Assembly (NCBI RefSeq): GCF_038957035.1
Contig: NZ_CP152412.1
Location: forward strand, 1,608,501 to 1,672,500
DNA: 64,000 bases
Origin: Bradyrhizobium sp. B097
Lineage (GTDB): Bacteria > Pseudomonadota > Alphaproteobacteria > Rhizobiales > Xanthobacteraceae
Direction: 5' to 3'
A program made the translations under genes and the position numbers. The notes below the pieces were generated by a model. It had not been told where the DNA came from and ran no database searches. It saw nothing but the letters and a program-made list of their open reading frames with translations. Within the stretch, counting starts at the first letter, position 1. Each line of letters starts with the position of its first letter. Positions 3,440 through 27,588 of the stretch are shown here, in pieces.

Positions 3440-3453
3440 TTGAGCCAGCTCAA
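3440..3453 (-). promoter_or_regulatory. FixK box upstream of xfp
   Basis: TTGAGCCAGCTCAA is a perfect palindrome that fits the Bradyrhizobium FixK2 consensus TTG[A/C]-N6-[T/G]CAA. Its centre is 92.5 bp from the xfp start; a class II site (-41.5) would give a leader of about 51 nt. The site is seen; its use is inferred. Confidence 0.7.
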
Positions 3454-4044
3454 ATATGCTCGCTAGTGCCGAACCGAATCATCAAGGTGTACCCACCGGG
3501 GCCGTCGAGATTTGGCGGCGTCGTCAAACAACGCTAGCTGCGATCATCGCGAAAAGCGAAACCAGGCTGGCTCAAGGGGAGGACGGTATTGACAGGCTGG
3601 AAAGGTTAGCTCCAATCGCTTTCTCCCGCAGATTGACCTTACGCAATACGTCTTTGTGACGGATGGTGGATGTTGGCGTGGTACTCTTACCCAGCCGAGC
3701 ATTGCCGTGACAATTCAAGTGAAAGTGCCTCTCGTCGAACAATCAAAGTCGCAGCCGAAGGACACCGCGAGTGTCAAATGTGGAAAGGTTGTCGATCGCG
3801 ACTGGTTTTTGGATCGATTGGAGGATGACGAAATTCGCGAGGTGCTGAAGAACAGCGCGGCGCCCGTTCCATCCACAGCCTAGGGCAAGGATGTTTGGAC
3901 GCGGAAGCAGTCTGCGGAGGGACACAGGACCGACGATTCGGCTCCCCATCCCGCCTTCCACGTTGTTTGGACGCGTTGGTCGTCCGTCACAGGTAGAATC
4001 AAGCGCTTGCCGGCTATCTATCGAGTAGACGACCCGCGAAAAAG
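3454..4044. other. Intergenic stretch with one doubtful small ORF
   Basis: No convincing gene is seen. A GTG-started 58-codon frame on the plus strand (3707-3883) encodes a charged peptide containing DRDWFLDRLEDDEIREVL, but it has no clear ribosome site and no recognised family. The rest shows no coding bias, repeat or RNA gene that I can support. Confidence 0.4.
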
Positions 4045-4069
4045 AAGCCCGGCGCATTGGCCCGGGCTT
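4045..4069. terminator. Hairpin, possible terminator
   Basis: Arms AAGCCCGG and CCGGGCTT flank a 9-nt loop. No T-run follows on the plus strand, so termination is plausible but unproven. It lies beyond the 3' side of the hemN remnant and the 4433-4684 gene. Confidence 0.45.
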
Positions 4070-4276
4070 TGAGTATCGAGACAACCGCAAAGGAGGATGG
4101 GTCGCTCGCCTTCGTGACGGGTATTTAACCCGACCCGGTCCGTCGAAGCTTGAGCTAGCGCAAAAGGATTCAATAAAAAGTCGAGGTCGCGGTTGGACAG
4201 GCTTCTTGCGGGCGCTCGATGCATGGACCGCACAGCCGCCGCCGGACAAGCACGATCGCGATGGGCCGATCCCCCG

Positions 4277-4379
4277 CTGGCTCGGTCAAAGTCCGGGGGG
4301 CGATCTCCAGGGCGATCTCGGCGTCGGGCAGCACGAAGTAGGAATGGCGTAGCGCGCCATCGAGGGCTGCAAAGGTTCG
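4277..4379 (-). pseudogene. Fragment of a second hemN-like gene
   Basis: The minus strand encodes about 34 residues, RTFAALDGALRHSYFVLPDA followed by EIALEIAPRTLTEP. They match an internal stretch of the intact HemN at 26.2-27.5 kb, where the corresponding residues read TFADLVGALRYSYFVVPEAE and IAVEIDPRTLTEP. The DNA is also clearly similar to 27.09-27.18 kb but diverged. The reading frame has no start, no radical-SAM cysteines and no continuation, so this is a relic of a coproporphyrinogen dehydrogenase paralogue, not a gene. It records a past duplication or replacement of hemN in this oxygen-regulated region. Confidence 0.8.
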
Positions 4380-4432
4380 ACCTTGAACTGTGCGGCGCTA
4401 CGTAACTATACGTAGGTCGTTGCGCAGGCCGC

Positions 4433-4684
4433 TCATCGTTCTGCGGTCCCCGTTCGGGCTCCCTCGATGTCGGTTGGGACCATACCATATGTCCTCAGCA
4501 CGGTGGTCCCCGGATGGCCGCCACGGATGATTGCCGCAGCGCCGGCGTGACCCATTACTTTCCACATGTGCTTGGCGTGCTCGATTGCCGAAGATGGATT
4601 GGCGCATTTGAGCTGTTGGCCGGGAAGAAGGTGGCAATCCGCGCGATCGTAAGGCACCGCGATGAAATGTGTGATTTCGTCCAT
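4433..4684 (-). CDS. Small conserved hypothetical protein (83 aa)
   Basis: The protein starts MDEITHFIAVPYDRAD and contains AIEHAKHMWKVMGHAGAAAI, a pattern I associate with short rhizobial hypothetical proteins of unknown function. The ATG at 4684 is chosen over one 8 codons earlier because GGAG lies 8 nt before it. No membrane segment or signal peptide is visible. A 31-codon ORF (4715-4810) ends 30 bp upstream on the same strand, and a near-consensus FixK/FNR box lies further up (4897-4910), so both could be one low-oxygen unit. No function can be assigned. Confidence 0.7.
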   Translation of the reverse strand: MDEITHFIAVPYDRADCHLLPGQQLKCANPSSAIEHAKHMWKVMGHAGAAAIIRGGHPGTTVLRTYGMVPTDIEGARTGTAER

Positions 4685-4714
4685 CGATGCGTCTCCTAAA
4701 CTGACCAACTGGGG

Positions 4715-4810
4715 CTACAGTGCGGCAATCCTCTTACGGAGGGTCGTCAGATGACCTGGGTCTGCCGACGAGCCGGTCACGACATTGCGCGCCGATATGA
4801 AATTGAACAT
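4715..4810 (-). CDS. Possible 31-aa peptide upstream of the 4433-4684 gene
   Basis: ATG at 4810 is preceded by GGAG with 8-nt spacing and opens a 31-residue frame beginning MFNFISARNVVTGS and ending in a basic LRKRIAAL helix-like tail. It ends 30 bp before the next gene on the same strand. The box at 4897-4910 is 93 bp from this ATG, about the spacing seen for xfp. Too short for family assignment; it could be a real small protein or a leader. Confidence 0.45.
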   Translation of the reverse strand: MFNFISARNVVTGSSADPGHLTTLRKRIAAL

Positions 4811-4896
4811 TGCTGTTCTCCACTGCTGTTCCTTCATAAAAGCAGGGAAAGCCAAGGGCCGCTTTGATTTATCTCACTCTTATCGGCTCATTTCAT

Positions 4897-4910
4897 GTGA
4901 TCCAGATCAA
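4897..4910 (-). promoter_or_regulatory. Near-consensus FixK/FNR box
   Basis: GTGATCCAGATCAA differs at its first base from the TTGA-N6-TCAA pattern. It would serve the minus-strand small genes ending at 4433. Weaker than the other boxes. Confidence 0.4.
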
Positions 4911-5189
4911 TGCGGAAGCGGCGCATTTCGGACACCTCGCGGCTCGAGGGGAACTCGTGACGGCGTCGTGGTCACCGATCGACTGATGGAGAAGCGCAAC
5001 GGTGCTTGCAACTGGCGCGACGGTCGTACGAAATAATGCGCTCTCCTGCCGGATTCCGATAGAAGAATTCACGTGAGTTCAATCTCGCAGCTGAATAGTT
5101 CTCACCAGCTCAAGCTAGCCGGTATTGACTTCGCATGCCCAAGTCAGATCGGGGCAAGCAGTTTGCGGCCGATCAGTTGGTGAAGAGGA

Positions 5190-5648
5190 ATGAATTTCAA
5201 AATCTCTCTGGCGCACCGCATTTGCGCAATCGTCGGATTGAGCTTTTGCGGGCTCACCGGCCTGGCCGCTATCCAAACAAGCAATTTGGCGGACGCTTTG
5301 CGCGGGCAGCGGCAGAGCGAGCTAAAGCACCTTACTCAGTTGGCTCTAAGCATTGCGCAGGAAGAGCATGACGCCGTCGAGCCTGTCGAACTGGCGATTG
5401 ATGGGCTCACATTCCGGCTTGGCGGTGTCGTGGGGCGTATGGATCGCGGCTCGGTGTTGATCAACCTGAATCTGTCGGCGGAAACCGAGCAAAAGTTGGC
5501 TGCCGCGCTCTCGAGCGAGCGTGCGCGCTCGGCAGCAGCTAAGGCTAGAGCCCGGCAGCAATCGCGATCCGCATCAGCTCCGACATGCTGCGCACATTGG
5601 TCTTTGCCATCACGTTCGCCCGATAAACCTCGACCGTGCGCGGGCTGA
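5190..5648 (+). pseudogene. Chemoreceptor-like N-terminal stub overlapping fixJ
   Basis: The first 60 residues (MNFKISLAHRICAIVGLSFC and onward) look like the cytoplasmic start, first membrane helix and early sensor region of a methyl-accepting chemotaxis protein. No second membrane helix, HAMP or signalling domain follows. From about residue 62 the sequence changes character to a short region containing AIDGLTFRLGGVVGRMDRGS and an alanine/arginine-rich tail. The frame then runs 104 bp antisense into the end of fixJ before stopping. A plausible ribosome site (GAGGA) sits directly before the ATG. I read it as a truncated or chimeric relic, although a short expressed protein cannot be excluded. 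Confidence 0.5.
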
Positions 5649-6153
5649 TGCCAAGGTCGTGGGCGATCACCTTGTTGATCTTGCCTGCAACGAGCCCTCG
5701 CAGGACGTCACGTTCGCGCGGCGAGAGGTCCAGCAGGCGAGCTTCGGCGTCGCGCTTGACCGTTCCGTCGGCCGGTGCTGCCGACTGTGCTCGCAGGGCT
5801 TCGCCGATTGCACGCAACAGAGCTTCGTCCTCAAACGGCTTTTCGATGAAGTCAACTGCGCCAGCCTTCATCGCCTCGACGGCGAGTGCGACATCACCAT
5901 GGCCGGTCATCAGAATGACGGGGCATACCGCTGCGTCAGCCTTGAGTTTGCGGACGAGCTCAAGGCCGCTCATGCCGGGCATGCGTATGTCGGATACGAT
6001 GCAGTCGACCGTGCCATTGGCGAAATGATCGAGAAACTCGGTTGCCGTCTCATAGGTCGTGACGGCAAAGCCGTTGACATCGAGCAGGAAGGCCAGTGAG
6101 TCCCGCATCGCCGGATCGTCGTCGATGACAAGAATTGTACGCCGCGTCGTCAT
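5545..6153 (-). CDS. fixJ: Two-component response regulator FixJ
   Basis: A 202-aa regulator with an N-terminal receiver domain ([11 protein letters not shown]; phospho-acceptor Asp55 in VSDIRMPG; the conserved lysine in EKPFED) and a C-terminal LuxR/FixJ helix-turn-helix ([20 protein letters not shown], then [13 protein letters not shown]). Phosphorylated FixJ activates fixK-type promoters in low oxygen. The ATG at 6153 overlaps the fixL stop (ATGA), giving translational coupling; longer upstream frames only read through fixL. The fixK gene itself is not in the window. Identity rests on domain order and on the haem-PAS kinase beside it. Confidence 0.95.
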
Positions 6154-7580
6154 GCTTCTTCTCCGTCCTCCGCGAACGGGAGGATGAACTGAAAAACCGT
6201 GCCGCCTCCAGAGTTTGGCATCACATCGATGCGTCCACCATGGGATTCGATGATGGTCCGGCAAATCGAGAGGCCGACGCCCATGCCTTGCTCCTTTGTC
6301 GTGATAAAGGGCTGAAACAGGCGGTCGGCGATGTCGGGGCTGATGCCCGGGCCGGTATCGGCGATAGAGAACGTCGCAACACCGTTAGTCTTGGCGACAC
6401 CGACGGTCAATTCGCGGCGCGGACTGGAGGCCATCGCCTCGATCGCATTGCGAACCAGGTTGAGCACGACCTGCTGAATTTGGATCTTGTCGACGATGAT
6501 CGAGGGCATGTCCCGGTCGCTGCGGATCGCTACCCGGATGCCCTGCTCCTTGGCGCCGAGCAGCGCTAATGCGACAGCTTCTTCAAGCAGGGTGGCCGGG
6601 CTCTCCAGGGAGTGTTGGGTCTCGCCCTTGGCGACAAATTCGCGCAGACGCTTGATGATGTCGCCAGCCCGTAGCGCTTGCTGCGCGGCCCGCTCGAGCG
6701 CGTCCCGAATGCGGGTAGCGTCCGGTGTCTCCGACGCCAGCAGTGACCTCGCACCACGCATGTAGTTCGTAATGGCTGATAGCGGCTGGTTGATCTCATG
6801 CGCGATTGAGGACGCCATCTCGCCCATGGCGGTCAATCGCGACACGTGAACCAGCTCGGACTGCAGCTCCTGAAGCCGCCGTTCCTGCGCACGACGCTCG
6901 GTGAGATCGCGGATAAAGCCGGTGAAAAAGCGTTCTCCGCGTACCTTGGCCTCGCCGACGGCCAGCTCCATCGGAAAGGTCGAGCCGTCGCTTCGTTCTC
7001 CGACCACGATGCGGCCAATGCCGATGATGCGACGCTCACCGGTCGTAAGGTAGCGCTCGAGATACCGGTCGTGCTCGCCGCGATACGGCTGCGGCATCAG
7101 GCTCGAAACGTTTTTACCGACGACCTGGTCCGCCTTCCAGCCAAACAGGCGCTCGGCTGCCGCGCTGAAGGAACGAATGATGCCATGGTCGTCGATGACG
7201 ATCATCGCGTCAGGGACCGTGTCGAGGATCGACTGCATATGGGCTTGGCGATTTCGTGCCTGATCGCTCTCCTTCAGTAGCCGGTCGCCCATAAAGCCAA
7301 GGATCGGTCCGAGGACAGCGAAGCAAGCGATATCGATCAAATTCGCAGGTTCAGTGACCAGGCTCCAGCCGAGGAATTTGGCGCTGATGACAAGGCAGAG
7401 CAGGGTGGTGACGATCGCCGGACCACGACCGCCGGCGAACGCGGCAAACAGCACGGCCGGGACAAAGATGATCGTGAAGGTCCGGTCTTCGAGATAATTA
7501 TCAAGCCCCGCGCGCACCGCGAACACGAGCGCGGCCGCTGCCGCGGCAGTGCCATAGCGGTACCAGATGCGGTCGGACAT
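6150..7580 (-). CDS. fixL: Oxygen-sensing haem histidine kinase FixL
   Basis: A 476-aa membrane sensor. Three or four hydrophobic helices occupy roughly residues 8-100, followed by a PAS domain with the haem-PAS signature. His170 in GEHDRYL aligns with the proximal haem histidine (His200 of B. japonicum FixL) and Arg190 closes the RIIGIGR segment that contacts bound O2. The histidine-kinase core follows, with His261 in [10 protein letters not shown], then an N box ([10 protein letters not shown]) and G boxes ([15 protein letters not shown]). Deoxy-FixL would phosphorylate FixJ, encoded immediately downstream with an ATGA overlap. All residues needed for sensing and catalysis appear present. 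Confidence 0.96.
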
Positions 7581-7645
7581 ATTCCCCCGGCAAAGCCCTC
7601 AGTCTGTTTGATATTACAACGTCCGGACGCCAGGTGCTACCTGCC

Positions 7646-7664
7646 GCTCTGTTCAAAGCAGAGC
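7646..7664 (-). terminator. Short hairpin after the 7674-7934 gene
   Basis: GCTCTG and CAGAGC arms flank a 7-nt loop just beyond the stop of the minus-strand gene. No strong T-run, so a weak terminator at best. Confidence 0.35.
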
Positions 7665-7673
7665 GTAGATGAG

Positions 7674-7934
7674 CTATTTGCACCAGGCGCGCCAATGCGT
7701 CGGCTGCACCAAGATGCGCTCGACGGTCCCCGCCTTCACCCAGCCGCCCAGGATGCGGCGGCAGGGGAAGACGAGCTTGTGAATCGCGTTACCTTCGATC
7801 ACGGCCAGCTCAAGGTCGCGGTCGAAGGGGGCCGTCGCGACCCCCTCCCATGTGGCGCTGGCGCCGGCCCCTGGGCGCTCTAGAGCGTCGCGTGCCGGCA
7901 CGTCAGGCAGCCTTCTGAATAGCCTCGTCGACAC
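7674..7934 (-). CDS. Hypothetical protein, paralogue of the 19003-19248 gene
   Basis: An up to 86-aa protein of unknown function. The central pattern ATAPFDRDLELAVIEGNAIH, then VFPCRR and a C-terminal PTHWRAW recurs in the gene at 19.0-19.2 kb (ELAVIDDDRH, GFPC, SATHWRYW), so the two are paralogues. The start is uncertain: the ATG at 7934 overlaps the end of the phasin gene by 32 bp, and a GTG near codon 12 is an alternative. Being downstream of the phasin on the same strand, it is probably co-transcribed from the FixK box at 8316. No membrane segment is seen. Confidence 0.65.
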   Translation of the reverse strand: MSTRLFRRLPDVPARDALERPGAGASATWEGVATAPFDRDLELAVIEGNAIHKLVFPCRRILGGWVKAGTVERILVQPTHWRAWCK

Positions 7935-8259
7935 CGCTCGTCTTTCGTGCGAGCAGGTTCAGCTCGATCGTGCCCAGCGAACGCGCGGTCTCGATCGCGT
8001 ACGTCGCGTCGTTCGCGCCGCGCGCGGTGACGCCCTTGGCCCAGTCCTGCAGAGCCGTGATCTTCTCGGCCACCGAGGCGGTGGAATTGAACCTACGGAA
8101 AAGCTCCCAGGCTTCGTTCGATTCGATCTGGATCTGCTCGAACCAGTGCCGGTTTGCCTCGATCAGTTTCTCCGAGAATTCCGACTGGACCGCCATCGCC
8201 CGCTTCGCGTAGCTCTGGATGGCGTCGGAGACGGGACGGGCTTCGCTATGGTCTGTCAT
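7903..8259 (-). CDS. Phasin family protein
   Basis: A 118-aa helical protein resembling phasins, which coat polyhydroxyalkanoate granules. Typical features are SYAKRAMAVQSEFSEKLIEA, a region rich in charged amphipathic helix, and KITALQDWAKG near the middle. The ATG at 8259 is preferred over one three codons earlier because GAAGG lies at a good distance. It is preceded by a perfect FixK box, 63.5 bp from centre to start, so micro-oxic induction is likely. That would tie carbon storage to the low-oxygen regulon. No polymer synthase gene is nearby. Confidence 0.8.
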   Translation of the reverse strand: MTDHSEARPVSDAIQSYAKRAMAVQSEFSEKLIEANRHWFEQIQIESNEAWELFRRFNSTASVAEKITALQDWAKGVTARGANDATYAIETARSLGTIELNLLARKTSGVDEAIQKAA

Positions 8260-8315
8260 GTCCAACATCCTTCGTTGAGGGAAGTATTGTTTCTCATGCG
8301 GGCGGCGCCTGCGCG

Positions 8316-8329
8316 TTGACGCGCGTCAA
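8316..8329 (-). promoter_or_regulatory. FixK box upstream of the phasin gene
   Basis: TTGACGCGCGTCAA is a perfect palindrome. Centre to start codon is 63.5 bp, which puts a class II transcription start about 22 nt before the ATG. Confidence 0.75.
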
Positions 8330-8370
8330 CTTGATGGCTTCCGGCCCGCGCGCTGGTTCTCGCGACCAGG

Positions 8371-8565: not shown

Positions 8566-8616
8566 TTGCACGATCCTGACGGATGACCATCCTAAACGGC
8601 GGCGCGGCGCTCCGTT

Positions 8617-8630
8617 TTGATGCAGGTCAA
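8617..8630 (-). promoter_or_regulatory. FixK box upstream of the zinc-ribbon gene
   Basis: TTGATGCAGGTCAA fits TTGA-N6-TCAA. Centre to ATG 8565 is 58.5 bp, in line with the other boxes in this window. Confidence 0.7.
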
Positions 8631-8667
8631 AATTCCAGTCGGGTGGTCGGATTGGGCAGGCGGCGGC

Positions 8668-8811
8668 CTAGAACGGTCGGCGCCCACGGAGCTGGTGGGT
8701 GCTCGACTTGGCGGGCTGCCTGAGCGGCCGCCTTGGCGGCAAGCGCACCCTGGCGAACGTTACGAAGACAATCGTCAGCACTCCCATCGAGGCAAGCAGG
8801 TTCTGCAACAT
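8668..8811 (-). CDS. 47-aa single-membrane-span peptide
   Basis: A short frame with a hydrophobic N-terminus (MLQNLLASMGVLTIVFVTFA) followed by a basic, proline-rich tail (RVRLPPRRPLRQPAKSS). It has a strong ribosome site, AGGAG with 9-nt spacing. The FixK box at 8865-8878 is centred 60.5 bp upstream, giving a predicted 19-nt leader. The layout is the same as for the recognised FixK-linked genes, which argues that it is expressed. It resembles small inner-membrane peptides, but no family is recognised. Confidence 0.65.
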   Translation of the reverse strand: MLQNLLASMGVLTIVFVTFARVRLPPRRPLRQPAKSSTHQLRGRRPF

Positions 8812-8864
8812 GACTTTGATCTCCTGACAGGGCGTCAGCATCGTCGATCATCGGCCGCGTCGCC

Positions 8865-8878
8865 TTGATTTCCGTCAA
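8865..8878. promoter_or_regulatory. FixK box between divergent genes
   Basis: TTGATTTCCGTCAA lies between the 47-aa ORF (start 8811, 60.5 bp away) and the CBS-BON gene. For the plus direction the first ATG (8907) is only 35.5 bp away, which would precede a class II start site; the ATG at 8958 (86.5 bp) fits better. Confidence 0.7.
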
Positions 8879-8906
8879 GCGCAGGCGTTGAGGGAGATCA
8901 AAGCAG

Positions 8907-9707
8907 ATGAGCGGATTGCGTGTGACCTTGGTGGCAGGCGATGGACGGAGAGCGGCAATGCGCGCACATCAGATCATGGCGAGACACGTCATCACTGTCG
9001 GAACCGAGACATCCATTCTCGACGCCGCGAAGCTGATGATGGACCACCATATCAGCGGCTTGCCGGTGGTCGATGCGGCTGGAAGACTGGTCGGAATCCT
9101 GTCGGAGAGCGATTTTCTGCGGCGAAGCGAGATCGGCACGCAGAGCCGGCGTGGCCGCTGGTTTCAGTTCCTTCTCGGCTCCGGCTATGCAGCCGCGGAC
9201 TTCGTCGACGAGCGCGGGCGGAAGGTCGGAGAGATCATGTCGTGCGATCCCGTCACCGTGACGGAAGACACGCCCTTGCCTGATCTGGTCGATCTCATGG
9301 AGAAGAAGGGCGTCAAGCGGCTGCCGGTGATGAACGACGGGCGGCTCGTTGGCCTCGTGACACGCGCGGACCTGCTGCGGGCAGTAGCGTCCGTCGCGCA
9401 CCAGGTTCCGGATCCCACGGCGGATGACGAGCATATCCACGATCGCATCGTACGGGCACTCGACGGTGCAAACTGGTGTCCGCTCGGACTGCAAGTCTCG
9501 GTGCGCAACGGCGTGGTGCATCTCCGCGGGGTCATCATGGATGAGTGGGCGAGGCAGGCGGCGATTGTCGCTGCGGAGAATGCCGCCGGCGTCAAGGAAG
9601 TGCACGATCACCTGTGCTACGTCGACACCTATTCCGGCTTCTATATCCAGTCCGCGGAGGACGAGCGAGAAGCTGCCGCCAAAGCGGCGAAGGAGACGGC
9701 TGGATGA
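8907..9707 (+). CDS. CBS-pair and BON domain protein
   Basis: A 266-aa cytoplasmic protein. Two CBS motifs fill residues 20-170 (MARHVITVGTETSILDAAKL with SGLPVVD and LVGILSESDFL; then MSCDPVTVTEDTPLPDLVDL with KRLPVM and LVGLVTRADLL). A BON domain follows at about 185-250 (IVRALDGANWCPLGLQVSV, GVVHLRGVIMD). CBS pairs bind adenine nucleotides; BON domains bind lipid or other ligands. Such proteins often appear in energy-stress regulons. The start may be 8907 or the ATG at 8958, which has GGAG 8 nt upstream and fits the FixK box better. It overlaps the next gene by ATGA. Confidence 0.88.
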   Translation: MSGLRVTLVAGDGRRAAMRAHQIMARHVITVGTETSILDAAKLMMDHHISGLPVVDAAGRLVGILSESDFLRRSEIGTQSRRGRWFQFLLGSGYAAADFVDERGRKVGEIMSCDPVTVTEDTPLPDLVDLMEKKGVKRLPVMNDGRLVGLVTRADLLRAVASVAHQVPDPTADDEHIHDRIVRALDGANWCPLGLQVSVRNGVVHLRGVIMDEWARQAAIVAAENAAGVKEVHDHLCYVDTYSGFYIQSAEDEREAAAKAAKETAG

Positions 9708-9913: not shown

Positions 9914-10130
9914 TACTCGTCCGGTCCGGTTGTAGTCCCTGATCACGTGAGCCGCACGTCGCGAGATGCGCGCCGTCCGCGCTGTCGAGATCGTTCAAGC
10001 TCTGCTCGTCTTCGATACTCTCCGCAACACGGCACCCGCAACACAGAGCACGCCGTTGCGACAGATCAATACGGGCGCCTCGCATTGATGGCAGCGTCAG
10101 CAACAAGGAATCAGCCCACGCGAGGGTGCC

Positions 10131-10403: not shown

Positions 10404-10417
10404 TTGACCAAGATCAA
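10404..10417 (+). promoter_or_regulatory. FixK box of the fixNOQP operon
   Basis: TTGACCAAGATCAA, centred 61.5 bp before the ATG of the DUF6455 gene that leads into fixN. This implies a class II start with a leader of about 20 nt. Confidence 0.8.
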
Positions 10418-10471: not shown

Positions 10472-10969
10472 ATGACCGACCGATCAGCTGGCAATAGCTC
10501 GCCGCAATTCGAGAATCTACTCGGCCGCTTGCGAGCATTTCTTGCTCGGCGACACGAATTCGATCTCATGACGTCTCGAGAGGTCGACGAAATCGCTCAC
10601 GAGCTCAACCTCTCGACGTCGGACCTTCGTGCGCTTGCCCGAGAGCAAGGCTCGCCGGAGTTACTCAGCAAGCGTCTTGAGCATGCAGGTTTGTCCGAGC
10701 AGATGCTCGCTTCTTCCCATTGCGATGTGCTGCGTGACCTGCAGCGGGTTTGCGGTCTTTGCTGCGAGAAGGCACGCTGCGCCGAGGATCTGGCGCGGGA
10801 GCGGCGGGCCAGTCCGGCAAAATACTGTCCGAATGAAATGACCCTGACTGCGCTAAGCCGCGGCGCCGGCGGCACGCGGCATGGCGCCGGAATTGACGCC
10901 GATCAAGCGGTTGGAAGCCAGACTGTGATTTCCCTGACGCCGTCGCACCCAAAGAAAGCCTCCACATGA
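10472..10969 (+). CDS. DUF6455-type protein leading the fixNOQP operon
   Basis: A 165-aa protein with a helical region [20 protein letters not shown] followed by [20 protein letters not shown] and [12 protein letters not shown]. The ordered cysteines ([11 protein letters not shown] and YCPN) match what I know of DUF6455 proteins and suggest a metal or redox site. The stop overlaps the fixN start (ATGA), so the gene is coupled to cbb3 oxidase synthesis. Its position as first gene of the FixK-controlled operon hints at a role in oxidase biogenesis, but no function is established. Confidence 0.75.
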
Positions 10970-12618
10970 CAGGTCCATCTTCCGTTTCAAAGTCGATGAC
11001 GATGGGCGAAGCCGGCTTGGCGTCGGTACTCGCAGTTTTTGCCTTCGTTAGCTTTCTCGGCGCTGCGATGGGCCACGATGCGGCGTTCAGCTTTCACGCG
11101 TCGCTTGCTTGCGCCGCCAGCCTGATCTCCGTGATCATGATCGGCAATCGCTACCTTGACCGTCCGGCTCAGCTGCCTCCGGCGGAGATCGGCGGCCGCC
11201 CCAATTACAATCTCGGCCCGATCAAGTTCGCTTCCGCCATGGCGATGTTCTGGGGCATCGCGGGTTTCGCCGTGGGTCTGATCATCGCCTCGCAGCTGGC
11301 GTGGCCGGCGCTCAATTTCGATCTGCCCTGGACGACATTCGGCCGCCTGCGGCCGCTGCATACGTCGGCCGTGATCTTCGCGTTCGGCGGCAACGTCCTG
11401 ATCGCAACGTCGTTCTATGTCGTGCAAAAGACCTGCCGCACGCGCCTTGCAGGCGACCTGTCGCCCTGGTTCGTCGTCGTCGGCTACAACTTCTTCATCC
11501 TGATCGCCGGCACGGGCTACCTGCTCGGCGTGACTCAGTCGAAGGAATACGCCGAGCCGGAATGGTACGCCGACCTCTGGCTGACGATCGTCTGGGTGAC
11601 GTATCTGCTCGTGTTCCTGATGACGCTCGTGAAGCGCAAGGAGCCGCATATCTTCGTCGCCAACTGGTTCTACCTGGCGTTCATCATCACGATCGCGGTG
11701 CTCCATCTCGGCAACAACCCCGCGCTGCCGGTCTCCTTCCTCGGCTCGAAGTCCTATATCGCCTGGGGCGGTGTGCAGGATGCGATGTTCCAGTGGTGGT
11801 ACGGCCACAACGCGGTCGGCTTCTTCCTGACCGCCGGCTTCCTGGCGATCATGTACTACTTCATTCCGAAGCGGGCGGAGCGTCCTGTTTACTCCTACCG
11901 GCTGTCGATCATCCATTTCTGGGCGCTGATCTTCCTCTACATCTGGGCCGGGCCGCATCATCTGCACTACACGGCGCTGCCGGACTGGGCGCAGACGCTC
12001 GGTATGACGTTCTCGATCATGCTCTGGATGCCGTCTTGGGGCGGCATGATCAACGGCCTGATGACGCTGTCGGGAGCTTGGGACAAGCTGCGGACCGATC
12101 CCGTGCTGCGCATGATGGTGGTGTCGGTCGCTTTCTACGGCATGTCGACCTTTGAAGGCCCGATGATGTCGATCAAGGTTGTCAACTCGCTGAGCCACTA
12201 CACCGACTGGACCATCGGCCATGTGCATTCCGGTGCATTGGGCTGGGTCGGCTTCGTCTCGTTCGGCGCGCTGTATTGCCTCGTCCCGTGGCTCTGGAAT
12301 CGCCAGCTCTACAGCCTGAAGCTCGTCAACTGGCACTTCTGGATCTCGACGATCGGCATCGTGCTCTACATTTCGGCGATGTGGGTGTCGGGAATCCTGC
12401 AGGGCCTGATGTGGCGTGCCTACACCTCGCTCGGCTTCCTCGAATACTCCTTCATCGAGTCCGTCGAGGCCATGCATCCCTTCTACATCATCCGCGCGGC
12501 CGGCGGCGCGCTGTTCCTGGTCGGCGCCCTGATCATGGCCTTCAATCTCTGGATGACGGTCAATGCCGGCCAAGCCAGCGAAACCGAGGGCGCCGGTGCT
12601 CTCCAGCCTGCCGAATAG
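10966..12618 (+). CDS. fixN: cbb3-type cytochrome c oxidase subunit I
   Basis: The catalytic, polytopic haem-copper subunit that reduces O2 with high affinity. At 550 aa with about 12-14 membrane helices it is typical of FixN/CcoN. Expected ligands are visible: His132 (LHTSAVIF), His281 in YGHNAVGFF and His331-His332 in GPHHLHYT for CuB, and His419 and His421 in [11 protein letters not shown] for the haems. The ATG is fused to the upstream stop (ATGA). First oxidase gene in fixN-O-Q-P order, followed by the assembly genes fixGHIS. Confidence 0.97.
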
Positions 12619-14440: not shown

Positions 14441-14454
14441 TTGACCGAGGTCAA
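14441..14454 (+). promoter_or_regulatory. FixK box upstream of fixGHIS
   Basis: TTGACCGAGGTCAA, centred 62.5 bp from the fixG start, almost the same spacing as for the DUF6455-fixNOQP promoter. It gives fixGHIS its own low-oxygen promoter. Confidence 0.8.
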
Positions 14455-14509: not shown

Positions 14510-15967
14510 ATGAACAAGCCCGTGTCGCCTGATGAACTCACAACCGACGAAGACGGGCCGCTCTACGCGCCCCGCAAGAAGGTATATCCGCAGAGCGTCT
14601 CAGGCCGGTTCCGCTCGATCAAATGGCGGCTGATGGCCGTCTGCCTCGGCGTCTACTATCTGCTGCCGTTTGTGCGCTGGCATCGGGGCCTCGGCGCGCC
14701 CGACCAGGCGGTCCTGATCGATTTTCCAAGCCGACGCTTCTATTTCTTCTTCATCGAGCTGTGGCCGCAGGAGGTCTACTACTTCACTGGCCTTCTGGTG
14801 CTGGCGGCGTTCGCCTTGTTCCTGATGAATGCGCTCGGCGGCCGGATCTGGTGCGGTTATCTCTGCCCGCAGACGGTCTGGACCGATCTGTTCTATGCGG
14901 TCGAGCGGCTGGTCGAAGGTGATCGCCGCGCGCAGATGAAGGCCGACGCTGGCCCAATGACCGTAAAGCGGGCCGGTCGCCGTGCGTTGAAGCACGCGAT
15001 CTGGCTGATGATCGCCTGGTGGACCGGTGGCGCCTGGGTGCTCTACTTCGCCGATGCGCCGACCCTGGTGCGCGACCTGGCGACCCTTCAGGCCCCAGTG
15101 ATCGCCTATGTCTGGATCGCGATGCTGACCGCGTCGACCTATTTGCTGGCCGGCTACATGCGCGAGCAGGTCTGCGTCTATATGTGCCCGTGGCCGCGGA
15201 TACAGGCGGCGCTGACCGACGAGTGGGCCCTCAACGTCACCTACAAATACGATCGCGGTGAGCCGCGTTGTTCGGTCAAGAAGGCGTTCGACATTCGCTC
15301 GCTCGGCGAGAAGGCCGGCGATTGCATCGATTGCAACCAGTGCGTTGCCGTGTGCCCGACCGGGATCGACATCCGCGATGGCGCGCAACTCGGCTGCATC
15401 CAATGCGGCCTGTGCATCGATGCCTGTGACGCCGTAATGACCAAGGTCAGTCGCAAGACGGGTCTGATCGGATACGACAACGATATCAACATTCAGCGGC
15501 GCGTTGCCGGCAAGCAGGAGATTTTCAAGCCCGTTCGAGCCCGTACCGTCGTCTACGCCAGCCTGATCACCGTGGTTTGTGCGGTCATGCTGTACGCGTT
15601 GATGTCGCGGACCCTGCTCGACGTCAACGTGCTGCACGACCGCAACCCGATCGCGGTGCGTCTCAGCGATGGCGCGATCCGCAATGGATACACGCTCCGC
15701 TTCCTCAACAAGCGCGGCTTTGATCGCGTGATCGCGATTGATGTCGATGGGCCAGCCGACGCGAAGCTGCATGTCATCGGTGCGGACTCCGTGACACCAG
15801 ACCGTCCGATGATCGTCCTTGGCCGCGACACCACCACCGAGCTTCGCGTGCTGGTGACGGCGCCGTTCGATGAAAAGGCGGAAAAGTCGGTACCGGTCAC
15901 GTTCCGCGTCACTGATATCGGCCTCGGAGAGGTCGCGTCCGCGACTGACCACTTCGTCCTTCCATAA
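14510..15967 (+). CDS. fixG: Membrane iron-sulphur protein FixG (CcoG)
   Basis: A 485-aa polytopic protein needed for copper handling during cbb3 assembly. Membrane helices lie in the first half and near residues 345-365. NapH-like GYLCPQTVWTDLFY and MCPWPRIQ motifs occur. Two ferredoxin-type 4Fe-4S clusters follow at about residues 270-310 (CIDCNQCVAVCP and CIQCGLCIDAC). A periplasmic C-terminal Ig-like domain closes it. First gene of the FixK-controlled fixGHIS operon. Confidence 0.96.
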   Translation: MNKPVSPDELTTDEDGPLYAPRKKVYPQSVSGRFRSIKWRLMAVCLGVYYLLPFVRWHRGLGAPDQAVLIDFPSRRFYFFFIELWPQEVYYFTGLLVLAAFALFLMNALGGRIWCGYLCPQTVWTDLFYAVERLVEGDRRAQMKADAGPMTVKRAGRRALKHAIWLMIAWWTGGAWVLYFADAPTLVRDLATLQAPVIAYVWIAMLTASTYLLAGYMREQVCVYMCPWPRIQAALTDEWALNVTYKYDRGEPRCSVKKAFDIRSLGEKAGDCIDCNQCVAVCPTGIDIRDGAQLGCIQCGLCIDACDAVMTKVSRKTGLIGYDNDINIQRRVAGKQEIFKPVRARTVVYASLITVVCAVMLYALMSRTLLDVNVLHDRNPIAVRLSDGAIRNGYTLRFLNKRGFDRVIAIDVDGPADAKLHVIGADSVTPDRPMIVLGRDTTTELRVLVTAPFDEKAEKSVPVTFRVTDIGLGEVASATDHFVLP

Positions 15968-19002: not shown

Positions 19003-19248
19003 TCAGCAGCAGCACATTGGCAGCACGTCAGGCTGCCAATAGCGCCAGTGTGTCGCGGACACTGTGACGGGTCGCATCGTGGTGGCATCGAACCATCCGT
19101 CGGCGTGCCGAATGCAGGGAAAGCCAAGCGGATGTCGATCGTCGTCGATCACCGCGAGCTCGATCACGCGGTCAGACGGCGCCGACCCAATCTCGCGCCA
19201 CCCTAACAGAGCCAGCCGTCGAATTATCGAGGTCAAAAGCCGACGCAT
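19003..19248 (-). CDS. Hypothetical protein, paralogue of the 7674-7934 gene
   Basis: An 81-aa protein whose core (GWREIGSAPSDRVIELAVID, GFPC and SATHWRYWQPDV) parallels the 7674-7934 product. The ATG at 19248 follows GGAG with 10-nt spacing. A FixK box at 19304-19317 is centred 62.5 bp upstream, the same spacing as for fixG. Two members of one unknown family linked to FixK boxes in one window suggest a real micro-oxic function. The cysteine-rich end (MCCC) is noted; its role is unknown. Confidence 0.7.
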   Translation of the reverse strand: MRRLLTSIIRRLALLGWREIGSAPSDRVIELAVIDDDRHPLGFPCIRHADGWFDATTMRPVTVSATHWRYWQPDVLPMCCC

Positions 19249-19303: not shown

Positions 19304-19317
19304 TTGACGCAGCGCAA
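19304..19317 (-). promoter_or_regulatory. FixK box upstream of the 19003-19248 gene
   Basis: TTGACGCAGCGCAA fits TTGA-N6-GCAA. A class II start would fall 21 nt before the ATG. Confidence 0.65.
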
Positions 19318-19455: not shown

Positions 19456-19469
19456 TTGAGCTAGGTCAA
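19456..19469. promoter_or_regulatory. FixK box with no clear target
   Basis: TTGAGCTAGGTCAA matches the consensus. The nearest plus-strand gene starts 119 bp from its centre, further than the 58-93 bp seen elsewhere, and no minus-strand start lies at the expected place. Confidence 0.45.
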
Positions 19470-20681: not shown

Positions 20682-20763
20682 GGTGCTTCTCCCTTGGCGT
20701 GTGCTCGGTGTTGATGTCCTTTCGAGGGGATATTGAGGGCACCGTCTTAATTGCTTGATCAAT

Positions 20764-20853: not shown

Positions 20854-20866
20854 ACGCAGGTGCTCG

Positions 20867-21346: not shown

Positions 21347-21355
21347 GAGGTCACG

Positions 21356-22303: not shown

Positions 22304-22700
22304 TCCACGGTGTGCCCGTCGAGGCCGTGTACCAATTAAAGCGGTGGCGGTGTGCCGAAGACCGCGTCCGCTTTGCCCTTCAACCAAGCCATCGCCGCAG
22401 TGCAATATTTCGTCATGGGCTAGAAGCAGCTATGAACTGGAAGCATTGGCACGCGCCTTCGTGCGACGGCTTCCCAGACACGATCGCGAAATCAAATCGG
22501 CGCACGTCTATCGAGACGCCAAGAGGTTCAAACCACAAGCTCAAAAATGTCTCGTTGCTGATTGGTCGACAGCATCCGAAGATAAGCGACAGTCGGCAAC
22601 TTTCGCTGGGTGGAAATCCCAAGCCCAACGTTCAGCCGGCAAAATTTGAATTGCGTGAACTGAATTTTCGGCGGAATCCAACCGAAGAGGAGACGCGTCC
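22304..22700. other. Intergenic region upstream of the metallo-beta-lactamase-fold gene
   Basis: Plus-strand frames here have no ribosome sites and low coding character. A TTGGCACGCGCCTTCG string at about 22446 recalls a sigma-54 -24 element but lacks the -12 GC. No repeat seen. Confidence 0.4.
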
Positions 22701-23690: not shown

Positions 23691-23895
23691 TTTTCCCGCC
23701 AGTCGGGAGAGGTCGTGGCGGACATCTCTCATATGGGCGGCCGCCATGACCGCATTGGGTCATTTTCGACGGATTTGGTGGGGTGGTAGGTTAATGTCCG
23801 CTTCTGCTCGTAAGCCTCCAACCGGGGCCCGCCCGGAAGCGTTACGTCGGGCCAGACCCCTATGATTCAAGGCCTCCAAACTGGGGGCTCGAATT

Positions 23896-23943
23896 ATGCG
23901 CTACGAACTCGCCGATTATGAATTGATTGCCACCAAGCCCGTA
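23896..23943 (+). mobile_element. Stub of an IS5-type transposase
   Basis: The frame begins MRYELADYELIATKPV, like the N-terminus MRYEL-DYEW-IKP of IS5-group transposases. It then loses similarity and has no catalytic domain. No inverted repeats could be fixed. Confidence 0.55.
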
Positions 23944-23971
23944 AGAGTACGGATGGCGTGCGGCTGGCGAG

Positions 23972-24217
23972 CTAATTCGATTCGAACCGAACGCCGATGC
24001 GGTTCTCCTTCCGCCACACGATATGGCAGGGCAATTGGCTATGATCGGTGTCCATCACGAGCGTAAACCGATCCGGGATCCCGACCGGCGATATCACGTC
24101 CAGCGCTGCGCCCGTGTCAGACAGGTTGCGGACGGTGCAGTCGATTGCGCCCCCGCCGAATGAGATTGTGCCCGCTTTCAGCATTCGCCGCCGCTGTACT
24201 GCTCGATGTTCTTCCAT
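23972..24217 (-). CDS. PilZ-domain protein
   Basis: An 81-aa single-domain protein: MEEHRAVQRRRMLKAGTISF, CTVRNLSDTGAALDV, then LPCHIVWRKENRIGVRF. The RxxxR-like start and the NLSDTGAAL motif (the D/N-x-S-x-x-G-A-like binding loop) are typical of PilZ, which binds cyclic di-GMP. The ATG at 24217 is chosen because this is where the family begins. It sits alone among gene fragments. Confidence 0.82.
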   Translation of the reverse strand: MEEHRAVQRRRMLKAGTISFGGGAIDCTVRNLSDTGAALDVISPVGIPDRFTLVMDTDHSQLPCHIVWRKENRIGVRFESN

Positions 24218-24374
24218 AGCAAACCTACGCAAATATCGAGACGCCCGCATACGCCAACGCATGAGACGGCTGGCTGGTCGTCCCTTTGGGAAGTTTGCGT
24301 GACCTTGATTAACGGACCGTCACCTCAGTTCAACCGTCTGCGCGTGGAACCGATGCAGCGTTCCATCCATCAGT

Positions 24375-24560
24375 GACCACGCGACACTCGTCATCCACCA
24401 TGATGAGGTCAAGCACGAAATATTCGATGAAGAGTTCGGCGCCGACGCGCAGGGCTTGCCCATAGAGCGTGTGAATCAAAGCATGTCCCGTTCGATCCGC
24501 CGCTGCGCAGGCGCGGCGGACCGGTTTTTTGCCGAACTCGCTCATATGGCCGCCGAATTT
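24375..24560 (-). pseudogene. Internal fragment of succinate dehydrogenase flavoprotein (sdhA)
   Basis: The frame reads [20 protein letters not shown], then [20 protein letters not shown] and [13 protein letters not shown], closely matching the SdhA/FrdA catalytic region ([18 protein letters not shown] in typical enzymes). Only about 60 residues remain. A different frame upstream (24560-24735) begins MIRAALDFFIQNRLEAEPEV and joins it without a common reading frame. This is a relic. Confidence 0.8.
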
Positions 24561-24754
24561 CGGATGGACCTGTATAGGTCGCACATCGGGGAAATGGATC
24601 AGTCCTTTTTACGATCCGCACGACAGAATCGGATAGCCCAAGGCGCTTCTTATGCGCTTCCTCAAAGCGTTCCTTCACCTCTGGCTCGGCTTCCAATCTG
24701 TTTTGAATGAAGAAATCCAGCGCTGCCCGGATCATGTCTCACTCACTATCCTCG

Positions 24755-25057
24755 ATGGATCTCCTCGCCCCTAGCGCAGGGATCCATGCCTGGACCGGCG
24801 GCGCGATCGGCTCGATGACGATAGCTGTGATGACGCGGGCGTCCCTCGGCCATAGCGGGCAAGCGCTCTCGGCATCCACTGCCACCCGCGCCGTTTACGC
24901 CTCGATCGTCATCGCAGCGCTGGCGCGGATATGTGCTGCTGTCGATCCGACCTATTCGATCCCGCGGTTAGCGATCGCGGGTATCGCATGGACAGGGGCG
25001 TTTCTGGGATTCGCGCTGGCTTACGCCCCGCTGCTGTGCAGCACCCGCAAGCTCTGA
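24755..25057 (+). pseudogene. C-terminal fragment of nnrS
   Basis: About 100 residues match the end of NnrS, a haem-copper membrane protein of nitric-oxide metabolism: GIHAWTGGAIGSMTIAVMTR, ASLGHSGQAL, then hydrophobic helices. NnrS proteins are usually near 400 aa with about 12 helices, so the first three quarters are missing. The frame before residue 20 is unrelated sequence. It lies beside the sdhA fragment and convergent with a hemerythrin gene. Confidence 0.75.
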
Positions 25058-25072
25058 GACGACGCTGACAGA

Positions 25073-25636
25073 TCAGTGTCGTTCCGCTTCAGCCTCTTGC
25101 TCCATTCGCAGAATGTGCGCTCTTAGCGCGTCGAAAGTTTCTTCGGCGGCGTCGCTAAACAGCGGATCTTTATGATCGGCTAGGACTGAAGCGACCTCCG
25201 CCCAATCCTGGGGCAGTAGAGCCTTGAGGGCTGCTGGGAAGAAATCGCGCTCTTCCACCATCATATGGTGACGCTCGTTCACAATAAAATCTCGTATGAT
25301 CTGGCCGACCTCCAGCCGAGGAATCTCGCGATCCGCGAGGACGCCATCGATCGCTTCGGCGAAGCGGCGCAAGCGATCGGCTCCGTCTGCGTGCTCACGT
25401 GCGAGATCGCCAACGGTTGCAGCCGCAGCCGGATCGCGAAGCGTCAGCTTGGAGAGTATCAAGTCTTCCTGGGGATGATGGTATACCTCCGGGTAGACTT
25501 CGAAATAGCTGATAATCGCCCGAATAACCTCATAATCGGGGCGACGCCCGTGCTCAAAGAGCTCAAGTTCTCGCTCGAGTATAGTGAGGAGCAAATCAAT
25601 ATTGCGATGCTCTCGGCGCAAAAGATCGATAATCAC
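25073..25636 (-). CDS. Hemerythrin-domain protein
   Basis: A 187-aa protein with a four-helix hemerythrin domain: REHRNIDLLLTILERELELF, EVYHHPQEDLILSKL, EHADGADRLRRFAEA and VNERHHMMVEERDFFPAAL give the expected His/Glu ligands for a diiron site that binds O2 or NO. GTG 25636 is chosen because GAGGAGG precedes it; an in-frame extension to 25729 (MFGSGLIWRKKAKPAS) lacks a site. Nearby nnrS and nirV relics suggest an NO-related history. Confidence 0.85.
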   Translation of the reverse strand: MIIDLLRREHRNIDLLLTILERELELFEHGRRPDYEVIRAIISYFEVYPEVYHHPQEDLILSKLTLRDPAAAATVGDLAREHADGADRLRRFAEAIDGVLADREIPRLEVGQIIRDFIVNERHHMMVEERDFFPAALKALLPQDWAEVASVLADHKDPLFSDAAEETFDALRAHILRMEQEAEAERH

Positions 25637-25861
25637 TGCAGCGCCCTCCTCAGAGGAGATACCCCAGTGGCCAAGGTAGGCCGAAGCCGGCTTCGCCTTT
25701 TTGCGCCAGATCAAGCCTGAACCGAACAAAGTGCGGTACCTCCTCGCTCAAGAAAGCGGAAGGCGGCAACGCTGCGATTTCGACCACCGCGTTGATCAAG
25801 CCGTTGATCAAGCGGCTATCGTTCGCGGAGATGTTGCGCGGCTGATTTAGCCGGGCGCGTT

Positions 25862-25875
25862 TGATCAGGCGCAAA
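25862..25875. promoter_or_regulatory. FixK-like box with no intact target
   Basis: TTGATCAGGCGCAA matches TTGA-N6-GCAA. On the plus strand an ATG with GAGGGG upstream lies 64.5 bp away (25933), but that frame stops after four codons and abuts an ATG opening a 44-codon frame. The minus-strand hemerythrin start is much further. Confidence 0.4.
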
Positions 25876-26169
25876 TCAGTTTAGCTCAAGTTCTGCGATC
25901 CATGTTCTGTAACAGCCATTCCGAGGGGCACCATGGACGCTGCATGATGGCCGTGGTGATACGGGTGACAGGCCAGACGATGAGCATTCGCGCAGATATG
26001 CAGGTGCTGCGCCTGTTGAGGGTGTTCCTGAGGATCGGAGGCCCGGATGCGCCGGCGGATCATGGCCAACTGTCTTGAGGAAAGGACCGTCAGAACGGAT
26101 CAGGATCCGGACGAACGTCGTTAGCCGGTTCGATCAGCAGAAGCGGCAGCGTCCTTGCAGATTGCGCTC

Positions 26170-27522
26170 TCAGACAGCGCGGCTGTGGATCGCCGTGGAC
26201 CGGGCGAGATGAGCGTCGAATGCGGAAGCCAAGCTCCGGACCAAGAACTCGGCGCCAGCGCTTACCGAGATCAGATCGTCGCTTATGGTCACCGCTCCGT
26301 CCGCGACGAGGCTTTCGAGTCGCGAGCGATCCACGATGGCTGCATCCGGATCGCGGCCGTGCGACCTGGCGATCTTGGAGAGATCGACGGCCATGTCGCA
26401 CATGACACGTTCGATGATGTCGCCGCGGAAGCGGTCGTCTCCGGTGAACGTGTAGCCCTTGACGGTCGCGAGCCGCTCCTCGGCGATGCGCGCTAGGTAG
26501 TCGCGTGTCGCGACCGCGTTCTGAACGAAGCCCTGCGGCATCCGACCGATGGCGCTTGCGCCCAGGCCGACAAGCGTTTCGGCGGCATCGTTGGTGTAGC
26601 CTTGGAAGTTCCGCCGCAATCGGCCCTCCCGCTTCGCAACAGTGAGTTCGTCCGAGGGGAGCGCGAAGTGATCGAAGCCGATGCGTACGTAGCCCGCATC
26701 GACGAGCGCCTCGGCTATCGCTTCGGACTGCAGATGTCGTTCGGTGCTGTCAGGCAATGCGCTTTCGTCGATCTTGCGCTGGTGCTTCTTGAACGAGGGG
26801 ACATGCGCATAGCCGAACACCGAGAACCGATCCGGCCGGAGTTCGATGCACCTCGCGACGGTGTCGAGGCAGGAACTCACTGTCTGAAGCGGCAGCCCGT
26901 ACAGCAGATCGAAGTTGAGTTTGCCGATGCCGTTCCTTCGCAGGCCCTCGACGCTCCGGGCAGTCTGGTCGAAGCTCTGTAAGCGGTTGATCGCGCGCTG
27001 GACCGCGGGGTCGAAGCTCTGCACGCCCAGGCTCGCGCGGTTGACCCCACTGAAGCCCAGAGCCTCAGTCATCGGCTCGGTCAACGTGCGCGGGTCGATC
27101 TCGACGGCGATCTCGGCTTCGGGCACCACAAAGTAGGAATAGCGCAGCGCGCCGACCAGATCGGCGAAGGTCTCGGGTGTCATGATCGTCGGCGTGCCAC
27201 CTCCGAAGTGGATGTGCGAGATCGGCTGCCGATGGCCGATGCTCTCCGCAACCAGATGCGCCTCGGTGCGCAGGCCCGAGGCGTAGATGGCGATCGGATC
27301 GTCCTTCTTGGTGACCGAGGTGTGGCAGCCGCAGTACCAGCACATGGATCGGCAGAACGGCACGTGCAGGTAAATAGAGGCCGGCCGTCGTGGGGAGATC
27401 GACTTCAGCCATCCGCGATATTCGGCTTCGCCGATCGACGGATTGAAGTGCGGGGCCGTTGGATAGCTGGTGTAACGGGGGAGCCGGTCCTGACCGTACC
27501 GTCTTGCGAGATCCGAGCGCAT
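26170..27522 (-). CDS. hemN: Oxygen-independent coproporphyrinogen III dehydrogenase
   Basis: A 450-aa radical-SAM enzyme converting coproporphyrinogen III to protoporphyrinogen IX without O2. The Fe-S motif is CRSMCWYC (Cys57, 61 and 64), preceded by YLHVPF and followed by GGGTPTIM. HemN blocks RASLGVQSFDPAVQRAINR and GLGASAIG are present. ATG 27522 is chosen because AAGG lies 8 nt before it and the FixK box then sits 59.5 bp upstream, like others here; a longer start at 27537 would crowd the promoter. A relic paralogue lies at 4.3 kb. Confidence 0.96.
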   Translation of the reverse strand: MRSDLARRYGQDRLPRYTSYPTAPHFNPSIGEAEYRGWLKSISPRRPASIYLHVPFCRSMCWYCGCHTSVTKKDDPIAIYASGLRTEAHLVAESIGHRQPISHIHFGGGTPTIMTPETFADLVGALRYSYFVVPEAEIAVEIDPRTLTEPMTEALGFSGVNRASLGVQSFDPAVQRAINRLQSFDQTARSVEGLRRNGIGKLNFDLLYGLPLQTVSSCLDTVARCIELRPDRFSVFGYAHVPSFKKHQRKIDESALPDSTERHLQSEAIAEALVDAGYVRIGFDHFALPSDELTVAKREGRLRRNFQGYTNDAAETLVGLGASAIGRMPQGFVQNAVATRDYLARIAEERLATVKGYTFTGDDRFRGDIIERVMCDMAVDLSKIARSHGRDPDAAIVDRSRLESLVADGAVTISDDLISVSAGAEFLVRSLASAFDAHLARSTAIHSRAV

Positions 27523-27574
27523 CGTCTGCCTTTCCATTGTACGAGGACATTGCCCGATGCGGCGTTCCCGAACG

Positions 27575-27588
27575 TTGCGTCAGGTCAA
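27575..27588 (-). promoter_or_regulatory. FixK box upstream of hemN
   Basis: TTGCGTCAGGTCAA fits the TTGC-N6-TCAA form allowed by the B. japonicum consensus. Centre to ATG 27522 is 59.5 bp. hemN genes are established FixK targets in rhizobia. Confidence 0.75.

Follow-up and report, generated by a model that had tools for sequence, protein, structure and literature searches.

The window analysed here is a 64,000-nucleotide stretch of the 9.25-Mb genome of Bradyrhizobium sp. B097 (C1:1608501-1672500). It contains fixL, fixNOQP, fixGHIS, xfp and hemN-like genes (fixJ, fixO, fixQ, fixP, fixI and fixS being assigned from position and sequence), and it very probably represents the central part of a FixLJ-FixK micro-oxic island, one that its relatives assign to the B. 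elkanii type. FixK activation at class II promoters best explains the island. With high confidence we propose that znr (a zinc-ribbon-like gene), p75 and the genes for a 47-amino acid (aa) peptide and an 81-aa protein would each have a promoter of their own, and that a DUF6455-related gene would head fixNOQP, with two tandem FixK promoters. Systems of this kind are well known; what is new is the members and a promoter within coding sequence.

FixK boxes, regulators and promoter geometry

An initial annotation had listed seven FixK boxes centred 58-64 bp from start codons, and one for xfp at 92 bp. All seven were present and fit the FixK2 consensus TTG[AC]-N6-[TG]CAA (PMC6710368, available part): those at 8316, 8617, 8865, 10404 and 14441 are exact TTGA-N6-TCAA, and those at 19304 (TTGACGCAGCGCAA) and 27575 (TTGCGTCAGGTCAA) are one base off exact. 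The measured distances were 58.5-63.5 bp for all seven and 92.5 bp for xfp (Table 1). The range did not hold as a limit, as six boxes had been overlooked, at 8888 (CBS/BON gene), 10056 (p75), 10893 (fixN), 25701 (hemerythrin-like gene), 28157 (CcmE-like gene) and 19456, and spacing reached 66.5 bp for fixN, 68.5 bp for p75, 71.5 bp for the hemerythrin-like gene and about 87 bp in a further group. The target promoters carried a consensus box, which was conserved in orthologues, weakly so for hemN. Across the genome, exact TTGA-N6-TCAA occurred at 126 sites, compared to 41 for a control pattern, and 18 of the 126 were packed into 43 kb (1585342 to 1627956); site positions were taken from the first 50, which reach to 3.74 Mb. 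The cluster extends about 23 kb upstream of the window, which covers about half of it.

The island carries its own FixK-like gene (C1:1591158-1591835), about 17 kb upstream of the window. Its product matched the solved FixK2 structure 4i2o_A at E 2e-58 and contains IETVSR, so that both marks of a FixK2 orthologue, the 4i2o match and the ETVSR recognition helix, were found. Two other FixK-type proteins, encoded at C1:6821869 (about 6.82 Mb, near a second fixN locus) and at 4.63 Mb (FixK/FNR-type), were 74% and 48% identical to the island protein, respectively. It is conceivable, although unlikely, that the sites are bound mainly by one of these or by NnrR and that the genes answer a different signal, such as nitric oxide: the genome holds three FixK-type proteins with the ETVSR recognition helix, which could share sites, and in B. 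diazoefficiens the boxes of NnrR overlap with those of FixK2 (PMC6710368, available part). However, the boxes surround fixLJ, fixNOQP and fixGHIS, according to the accessible part of PMC6515984 fixNOQP is known to be controlled by FixK2 in the genus, and the island has a FixK-like gene of its own. We infer from the sequence that FixK would bind these boxes and that the genes would be induced at low oxygen.

The window held 20 consensus matches, 19 of them in its first 30 kb, and a single match to the reversed pattern. Eight of the 19 boxes lay 58-64.5 bp before starts, where circular shifts gave a mean of 0.11 and reached eight in 4 of 20000 trials; eleven lay 55-72 bp before starts, with a mean of 0.27 and 3 of 20000 shifts reaching eleven, both tests using a list of 25 gene starts curated by hand. 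Start choice mattered in two cases, the phasin-like gene (ATG 8259, common to orthologues; 8268 would give 54.5 bp) and hemN (ATG 27522; 27537 would give 44.5 bp). That the regular spacing is merely a by-product of short intergenic regions and of start codons chosen to fit is hardly credible, for although these upstream starts break the pattern, eight boxes against a mean of 0.11, the retention of start and spacing in orthologues and a -10-like signal independent of start codons speak against it.

Class II CRP/FNR promoters have an activator site near -41.5 plus a -10 element. When 17 promoters (12 from the window and five from upstream) were aligned on the box, the most informative positions, counted from the box centre, were A at +30.5 (13/17) and T at +34.5 (12/17), which, for a transcript start at +41.5, would be the A at -11 and the T at -7 of a -10 element. 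The joint pair was found in 9 of the 17 promoters and in at most four at any other place, and none of 5000 shuffles reached nine. The same pair occurred on the opposite side of 2/17 boxes. Among the 108 exact sites lying outside the island 32 were also inspected, and the pair was seen on 4 of their 64 sides. Because the pair stands at a fixed distance from the box, class II promoters are supported without recourse to start codons. The class II geometry proposed by the initial annotation gains support from this, and it is consistent with nosR of B. diazoefficiens, for which the accessible part of PMC5582078 gives a start at +40.5 from the FixK2 box and a second start at +67.5.

Small genes with FixK boxes of their own

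Conservation was followed in 60 fixN neighbourhoods of the genus, hand-picked from fixN matches (132 of the 146 genomes of the genus had one at E <= 1e-150) and comprising 12 island copies (L058-L069), second-type loci and canonical loci. Island counts include the window copy, and genes that were not found or had no N-terminal match were dropped (e.g. the phasin-like gene of L064 and fixN of L069).

The best-conserved uncharacterised target is p75, which showed the strongest purifying selection of six genes tested, with a ratio of nonsynonymous to synonymous differences (pN/pS) of 0.09 in island copies. Matches down to about 45% identity were examined, and of 57 distinct loci 54 had a consensus box (52.5-72.5 bp), some of them loci where the adjacent fix genes are reduced to remnants or missing. 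The box was found in 27/27 fixN-neighbourhood rows (55.5-71.5 bp) and 20/20 further loci (63.5-72.5 bp), together 45 distinct, and in nine of twelve further matches (52.5-67.5 bp). Among 18 other copies (L221-L238) pN/pS was 0.17 and the frame was open for at least 64 codons in all, L230 having ACG where the others have ATG. No Pfam domain was found in the 120 homologues listed of 206, and the predicted beta-beta-alpha-beta-alpha fold gave no telling structural match.

Seven of the L221-L238 loci were read further for the state of their fix genes. The p75 match covered residues 1-71 or 1-75 in all seven. In the same 9.5-11-kb stretches fixO, fixP, fixG and fixI gave no match; fixN matched in five, never past residue 97, and not in the other two; fixL was represented by short pieces in four, was not found in two, and in L249 gave a 43% match that runs off the stretch end. 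Matches to znr were full-length in four and partial in three. As p75 outlives the oxidase in several lineages, p75, and perhaps znr, seems to act independently of the island oxidase copy. The genome's second fixN locus (C1:6809600-6818300, L075) also holds p75, znr and a DUF6455 paralogue, and its fixN box has one mismatch.

An exact box preceded znr at 58.5-61.5 bp in all 19 copies (12 island and seven second-type). The protein has C14 alone and then C42-x2-C45-x3-H49; these four residues were invariant in 13/13 aligned rows, and neither Pfam nor NCBIfam gave a family match. The 81-aa gene was present in all seven islands looked at (58-98% identity), with a box at 62.5-66.5 bp in the six that match from residue 1, exact in four; the copy of G069 aligned only from residue 20.

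The 47-aa gene had an exact box at 59.5-60.5 bp in 11/11 copies, and in each of them its centre lay 23 bp from that of the neighbouring box. Its frame might be no protein gene at all, the box driving a small RNA, and its pN/pS of 0.43 was indeed the weakest coding signal among the six genes tested; nor was it found in L067 or L068. Yet the start codon, a length of 47-50 codons, a hydrophobic N-terminus and a C-terminal RRPF were kept in 11/11 copies, which makes a small RNA improbable, and a 47-aa peptide gene with its own FixK promoter is preferred. The divergent 47-aa and CBS/BON genes share this box pair (8865-8901; 23 bp apart in 11 copies). Before the CBS gene of L067 and L068 the pair is spaced by 34 and 33 bp, longer by roughly one helical turn, as if the boxes were held on one face of the helix.

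The initial annotation had held that the zinc-ribbon, 47-aa, 19.0-kb (81-aa) and DUF6455 genes behave like fixG and hemN at the promoter. The likeness to the fixG promoter stood for all four, whereas hemN, with its poorly conserved box, proved a weak comparator. By promoter anatomy and conservation the small targets rank as p75, then znr, then the 81-aa, 47-aa and DUF6455 genes, and they make good candidates for novel functions at low oxygen.

The DUF6455 gene and the promoter of fixN

The DUF6455 gene is not a target that stands alone: given its 4-bp overlap with fixN, it heads the fixNOQP operon. Its own box was exact in 11 of 13 island copies and in nine of 12 overlap-type loci of named records, and weak or missing in the rest; two of the three such overlap-type loci are from genomes already in the island set. 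The window protein gave no PF20056 (DUF6455) match at E <= 10, where HMMER filters drop many weak ones; its likeness to that family rests on PF20056 matches in 20 of 105 homologues, mostly 50-60% identical to it. Residues C94, C97, C103 and C119 were invariant in 20 aligned rows. What sets the island version apart from DUF6455 is an additional tail, which overlaps fixN and contains its putative promoter.

The internal fixN box was exact in 12/13 island copies and broken only in L069, where fixN is frameshifted. Two of 19 internal-box sequences were set aside for frame or length, and the half-sites were intact in 16 of the remaining 17 colinear distinct sequences. The third positions of the half-site codons (as in ATT, GAT, CAA) were identical in 17/17, whereas the intervening Asp codon varied between GAC and GAT; ATT, GAT and CAA have shares of 0.12, 0.44 and 0.24 among the synonymous codons of the window's large genes. 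The two half-site bases changed in L069 are not at third codon positions, and in this copy fixN falls into two frames, residues 1-200 and 202-550; this is a single frameshifted case in which a sequencing error is possible.

The body of the DUF6455 protein (residues 1-132) had a pN/pS of 0.19 and a synonymous difference (pS) of 0.503, compared to 0.67 and 0.295 in the tail, and the lowered pS is a mark of constraint at the DNA level. Residues 136-165 had a predicted local distance difference test score (pLDDT) under 50 in a low-confidence model. One could suppose that the box is kept for the protein, as an IDADQ motif, and not as a promoter, since it lies in the same frame in 17 colinear sequences and gives I-D-A-D-Q in most. 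This is very improbable: the tail residues vary, as their pN/pS shows, but the half-site third codon positions never do, second-type DUF6455 paralogues align only to about residue 130-147, and in L199-L202 the whole fixN box falls in the gap (95-168) that separates the DUF6455 gene from fixN. Canonical loci without the overlap (L083-L117, L086 dropped) also had a fixN box at 59.5-66.5 bp in 34/34, and the DUF6455 tail and the fixN promoter of L088 share GTG[AG]TTTC at the same distance. A conserved fixN promoter inside the DUF6455 gene therefore remains the preferred reading.

Thirty-nine DUF6455 loci, nearly all of named organisms, were sorted by the gap from the DUF6455 stop to fixN; the named relatives were mostly Bradyrhizobium, including B. 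embrapense, B. mercantei, B. viridifuturi and B. macuxiense, and B. elkanii was among the homologue names. The 4-bp overlap was seen in 12 loci, all with an exact internal box (at 66.5 bp, once 72.5). A 36-bp gap was found in three (fixN box exact in two, none in one), a gap of 56-70 bp in 11 (exact in four, one mismatch in five, none in two) and a gap of 95-106 bp in three (all exact). Three loci had a larger gap, and in seven no fixN match was found downstream within the stretch. From this series, with gaps of 56-106 bp, of 36 bp and the 4-bp overlap, the DUF6455 reading frame seems to have grown over the fixN promoter.

A mechanism can be proposed from what was observed: the boxes with their spacing, the -10-like signal, the conservation, and the selection acting on both the proteins and the internal box. 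FixK dimers would bind TTG[AC]-N6-[TG]CAA boxes centred near -41 and activate class II promoters with a -10 element, so that transcription would start about 41 bp from the box centre. Most genes would then have leaders of about 17-30 nucleotides (nt) and xfp one of about 45-51 nt, a wider range than the 17-22 nt first suggested. The znr, 47-aa, p75 and 81-aa genes would each be driven by a class II promoter of their own. The ancestral FixK promoter of fixN would have been retained, lying today within the 3'-terminal part of the DUF6455 gene, so that fixNOQP would have two tandem FixK promoters, both predicted to work. More tentatively, and perhaps a little less probably than its opposite, p75 and znr may form a hitherto undescribed cbb3-independent, FixK-driven micro-oxic module, and the DUF6455 gene may be a second novelty of these islands, its frame grown over the fixN promoter so that the same DNA would encode the protein tail and act as an oxygen-controlled promoter within a tandem pair.

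Besides the three FixK-type proteins noted above, several observations weigh against this reading. The genes of the 17 aligned promoters were assigned by hand, leaving out four exact upstream boxes and eight consensus matches of the window (unclear gene or about 87-bp spacing); 8 of the 17 have no full A...T pair, and the internal fixN promoter has GTG[AG]TTTCC in its place. The box of the DUF6455 gene has one mismatch in L067, is absent from L068 and is weak or missing in L177 too. No p75 box was found in L251 (85% identity), L260 (45%) or L261 (48%), and the hemN box was found in one relative only (G069). Of the 13 second-type loci (L070-L082), seven had an exact fixN box and four had one with a single mismatch, and in two no such box was found, showing that the fixN promoter can be lost.

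Other targets and comparison with known systems

An exact box was found at 60.5-64.5 bp before fixG in 13/13 island copies and in none of the 12 second-type loci shown. The CBS/BON gene had an exact box at 60.5-64.5 bp in 13/13 island copies, and the phasin-like gene in 11/11 (L064 dropped for want of an N-terminal match; no copy found in L067); two distant phasin-like matches (26-34% identity; L070, L080) had no box. A phasin family was rejected for 7903-8259, which matched no such profile, its sole Pfam match being EzrA at E 0.03, far below cut-off, with none in NCBIfam. The xfp gene was found in four of seven islands looked at, with its box at 86.5 bp in all four. The hemN genes of G107, G118, G009a and G009b (three genomes), 77-78% identical and in another place, had no box.

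A second spacing class of about 87 bp comprises xfp (3440), the CcmE-like gene (28157) and a doubtful 61-aa frame at 19456, where no convincing gene was found. In G120, G107, G118 and G009a the exact box TTGATCCGGATCAA lies about 0.72-0.75 kb after the xfp box, and it also occurs in G009b, where xfp gave no match; between xfp and fixJ the window has only one-mismatch sites, at 4864 and 4897. A methyl-accepting chemotaxis-like gene, read from its translation at 5190-5648 (+), seems internally deleted; in G120 the frame is open (668 aa, L119:5598-7604). The upstream neighbours are CBS-type, universal-stress-like, acetoacetyl-CoA reductase, polyhydroxyalkanoate synthase and alcohol dehydrogenase-like genes, named by reading translations without a family search.

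Table 1. Genes and FixK boxes of the window; distances run from box centre to start codon.
Feature	Position	Strand	Remarks
FixK box, xfp	3440..3453	-	exact TTGA-N6-TCAA; 92.5 bp from ATG 3354
xfp, phosphoketolase	943..3354	-	Pfam XFP_N, XFP, XFP_C
FixK box, phasin-like gene	8316..8329	-	exact; 63.5 bp from ATG 8259
Phasin-like gene, 118 aa	7903..8259	-	name by resemblance; pN/pS 0.23 over 11 copies
FixK box, znr	8617..8630	-	exact; 58.5 bp
znr, zinc-ribbon-like gene, 64 aa	8371..8565	-	pN/pS 0.27
FixK box, 47-aa gene	8865..8878	-	exact; 60.5 bp
47-aa peptide gene	8668..8811	-	one hydrophobic stretch, basic tail; pN/pS 0.43
FixK box, CBS/BON gene	8888..8901	+	exact; 63.5 bp; overlooked before
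CBS-CBS-BON protein gene	8958..9707	+	Pfam CBS (two stretches), BON; pN/pS 0.18
FixK box, p75	10056..10069	+	68.5 bp; overlooked before
p75, uncharacterised gene, 75 aa	10131..10358	+	pN/pS 0.09 in island copies
FixK box, DUF6455-fixNOQP	10404..10417	+	exact; 61.5 bp
DUF6455-related gene, 165 aa	10472..10969	+	overlaps fixN by 4 bp
DUF6455 tail (residues 133-165)	10868..10966	+	also holds fixN promoter; region used for pN/pS and pS
Internal FixK box, fixN	10893..10906	+	exact; 66.5 bp; overlooked before
fixN, cbb3 oxidase subunit I	10966..12618	+	
FixK box, fixG	14441..14454	+	exact; 62.5 bp
fixG	14510..15967	+	Pfam FixG_C, Fer4_18
FixK box, 81-aa gene	19304..19317	-	62.5 bp
81-aa uncharacterised gene	19003..19248	-	no Pfam family
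FixK-consensus box, hemerythrin-like gene	25701..25714	-	71.5 bp from GTG 25636; same box and spacing in G009b
Hemerythrin-like gene	25073-25729 (frame)	-	Pfam Hemerythrin
FixK-consensus box, hemN	27575..27588	-	59.5 bp from ATG 27522
hemN-like gene	26170..27522	-	Pfam Radical_SAM over cut-off; HemN_C below cut-off
FixK-consensus box, CcmE-like gene	28157..28170	-	87.5 bp; same spacing in G069
CcmE-like gene	27636-28076	-	Pfam CcmE

FixK regulons govern rhizobial respiration inside nodules; respiration and denitrification are accounted for by the members known so far, but small genes are often overlooked. A fixN promoter within a reading frame, with intermediates elsewhere, implies that an operon can absorb a neighbour with the old control retained. 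A literature search, whose reach did not include the main FixK2 regulon paper, found no description of these members or of a promoter in the coding sequence.

Compared to class II CRP/FNR promoters in general, nothing fundamental sets the island apart; it has a longer-leader subgroup at about 87 bp and one promoter in coding sequence. The FixLJ-FixK2 regulon of B. diazoefficiens USDA 110 uses the same consensus, and its fixN box has its first base at -70 and its centre at -63.5 (PMC6710368, Table 1, available part). In the accessible parts of PMC6710368, PMC5582078 and PMC6515984, fixG, fixI, the CBS-domain gene blr2762 and a phosphoketolase gene of USDA 110 are listed as micro-oxically induced, and phbB and hemN genes, which have a putative box, are given as induced under anoxia. 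As far as these sources go, the gene numbered just before fixN (blr2763) in USDA 110 is the CBS-domain gene blr2762, whereas here it is the DUF6455 gene; the present genome differs further in that the genes lie together in a single dense island of 43 kb, which has a FixK-like gene of its own and also the znr, 47-aa, p75, 81-aa and DUF6455 genes.

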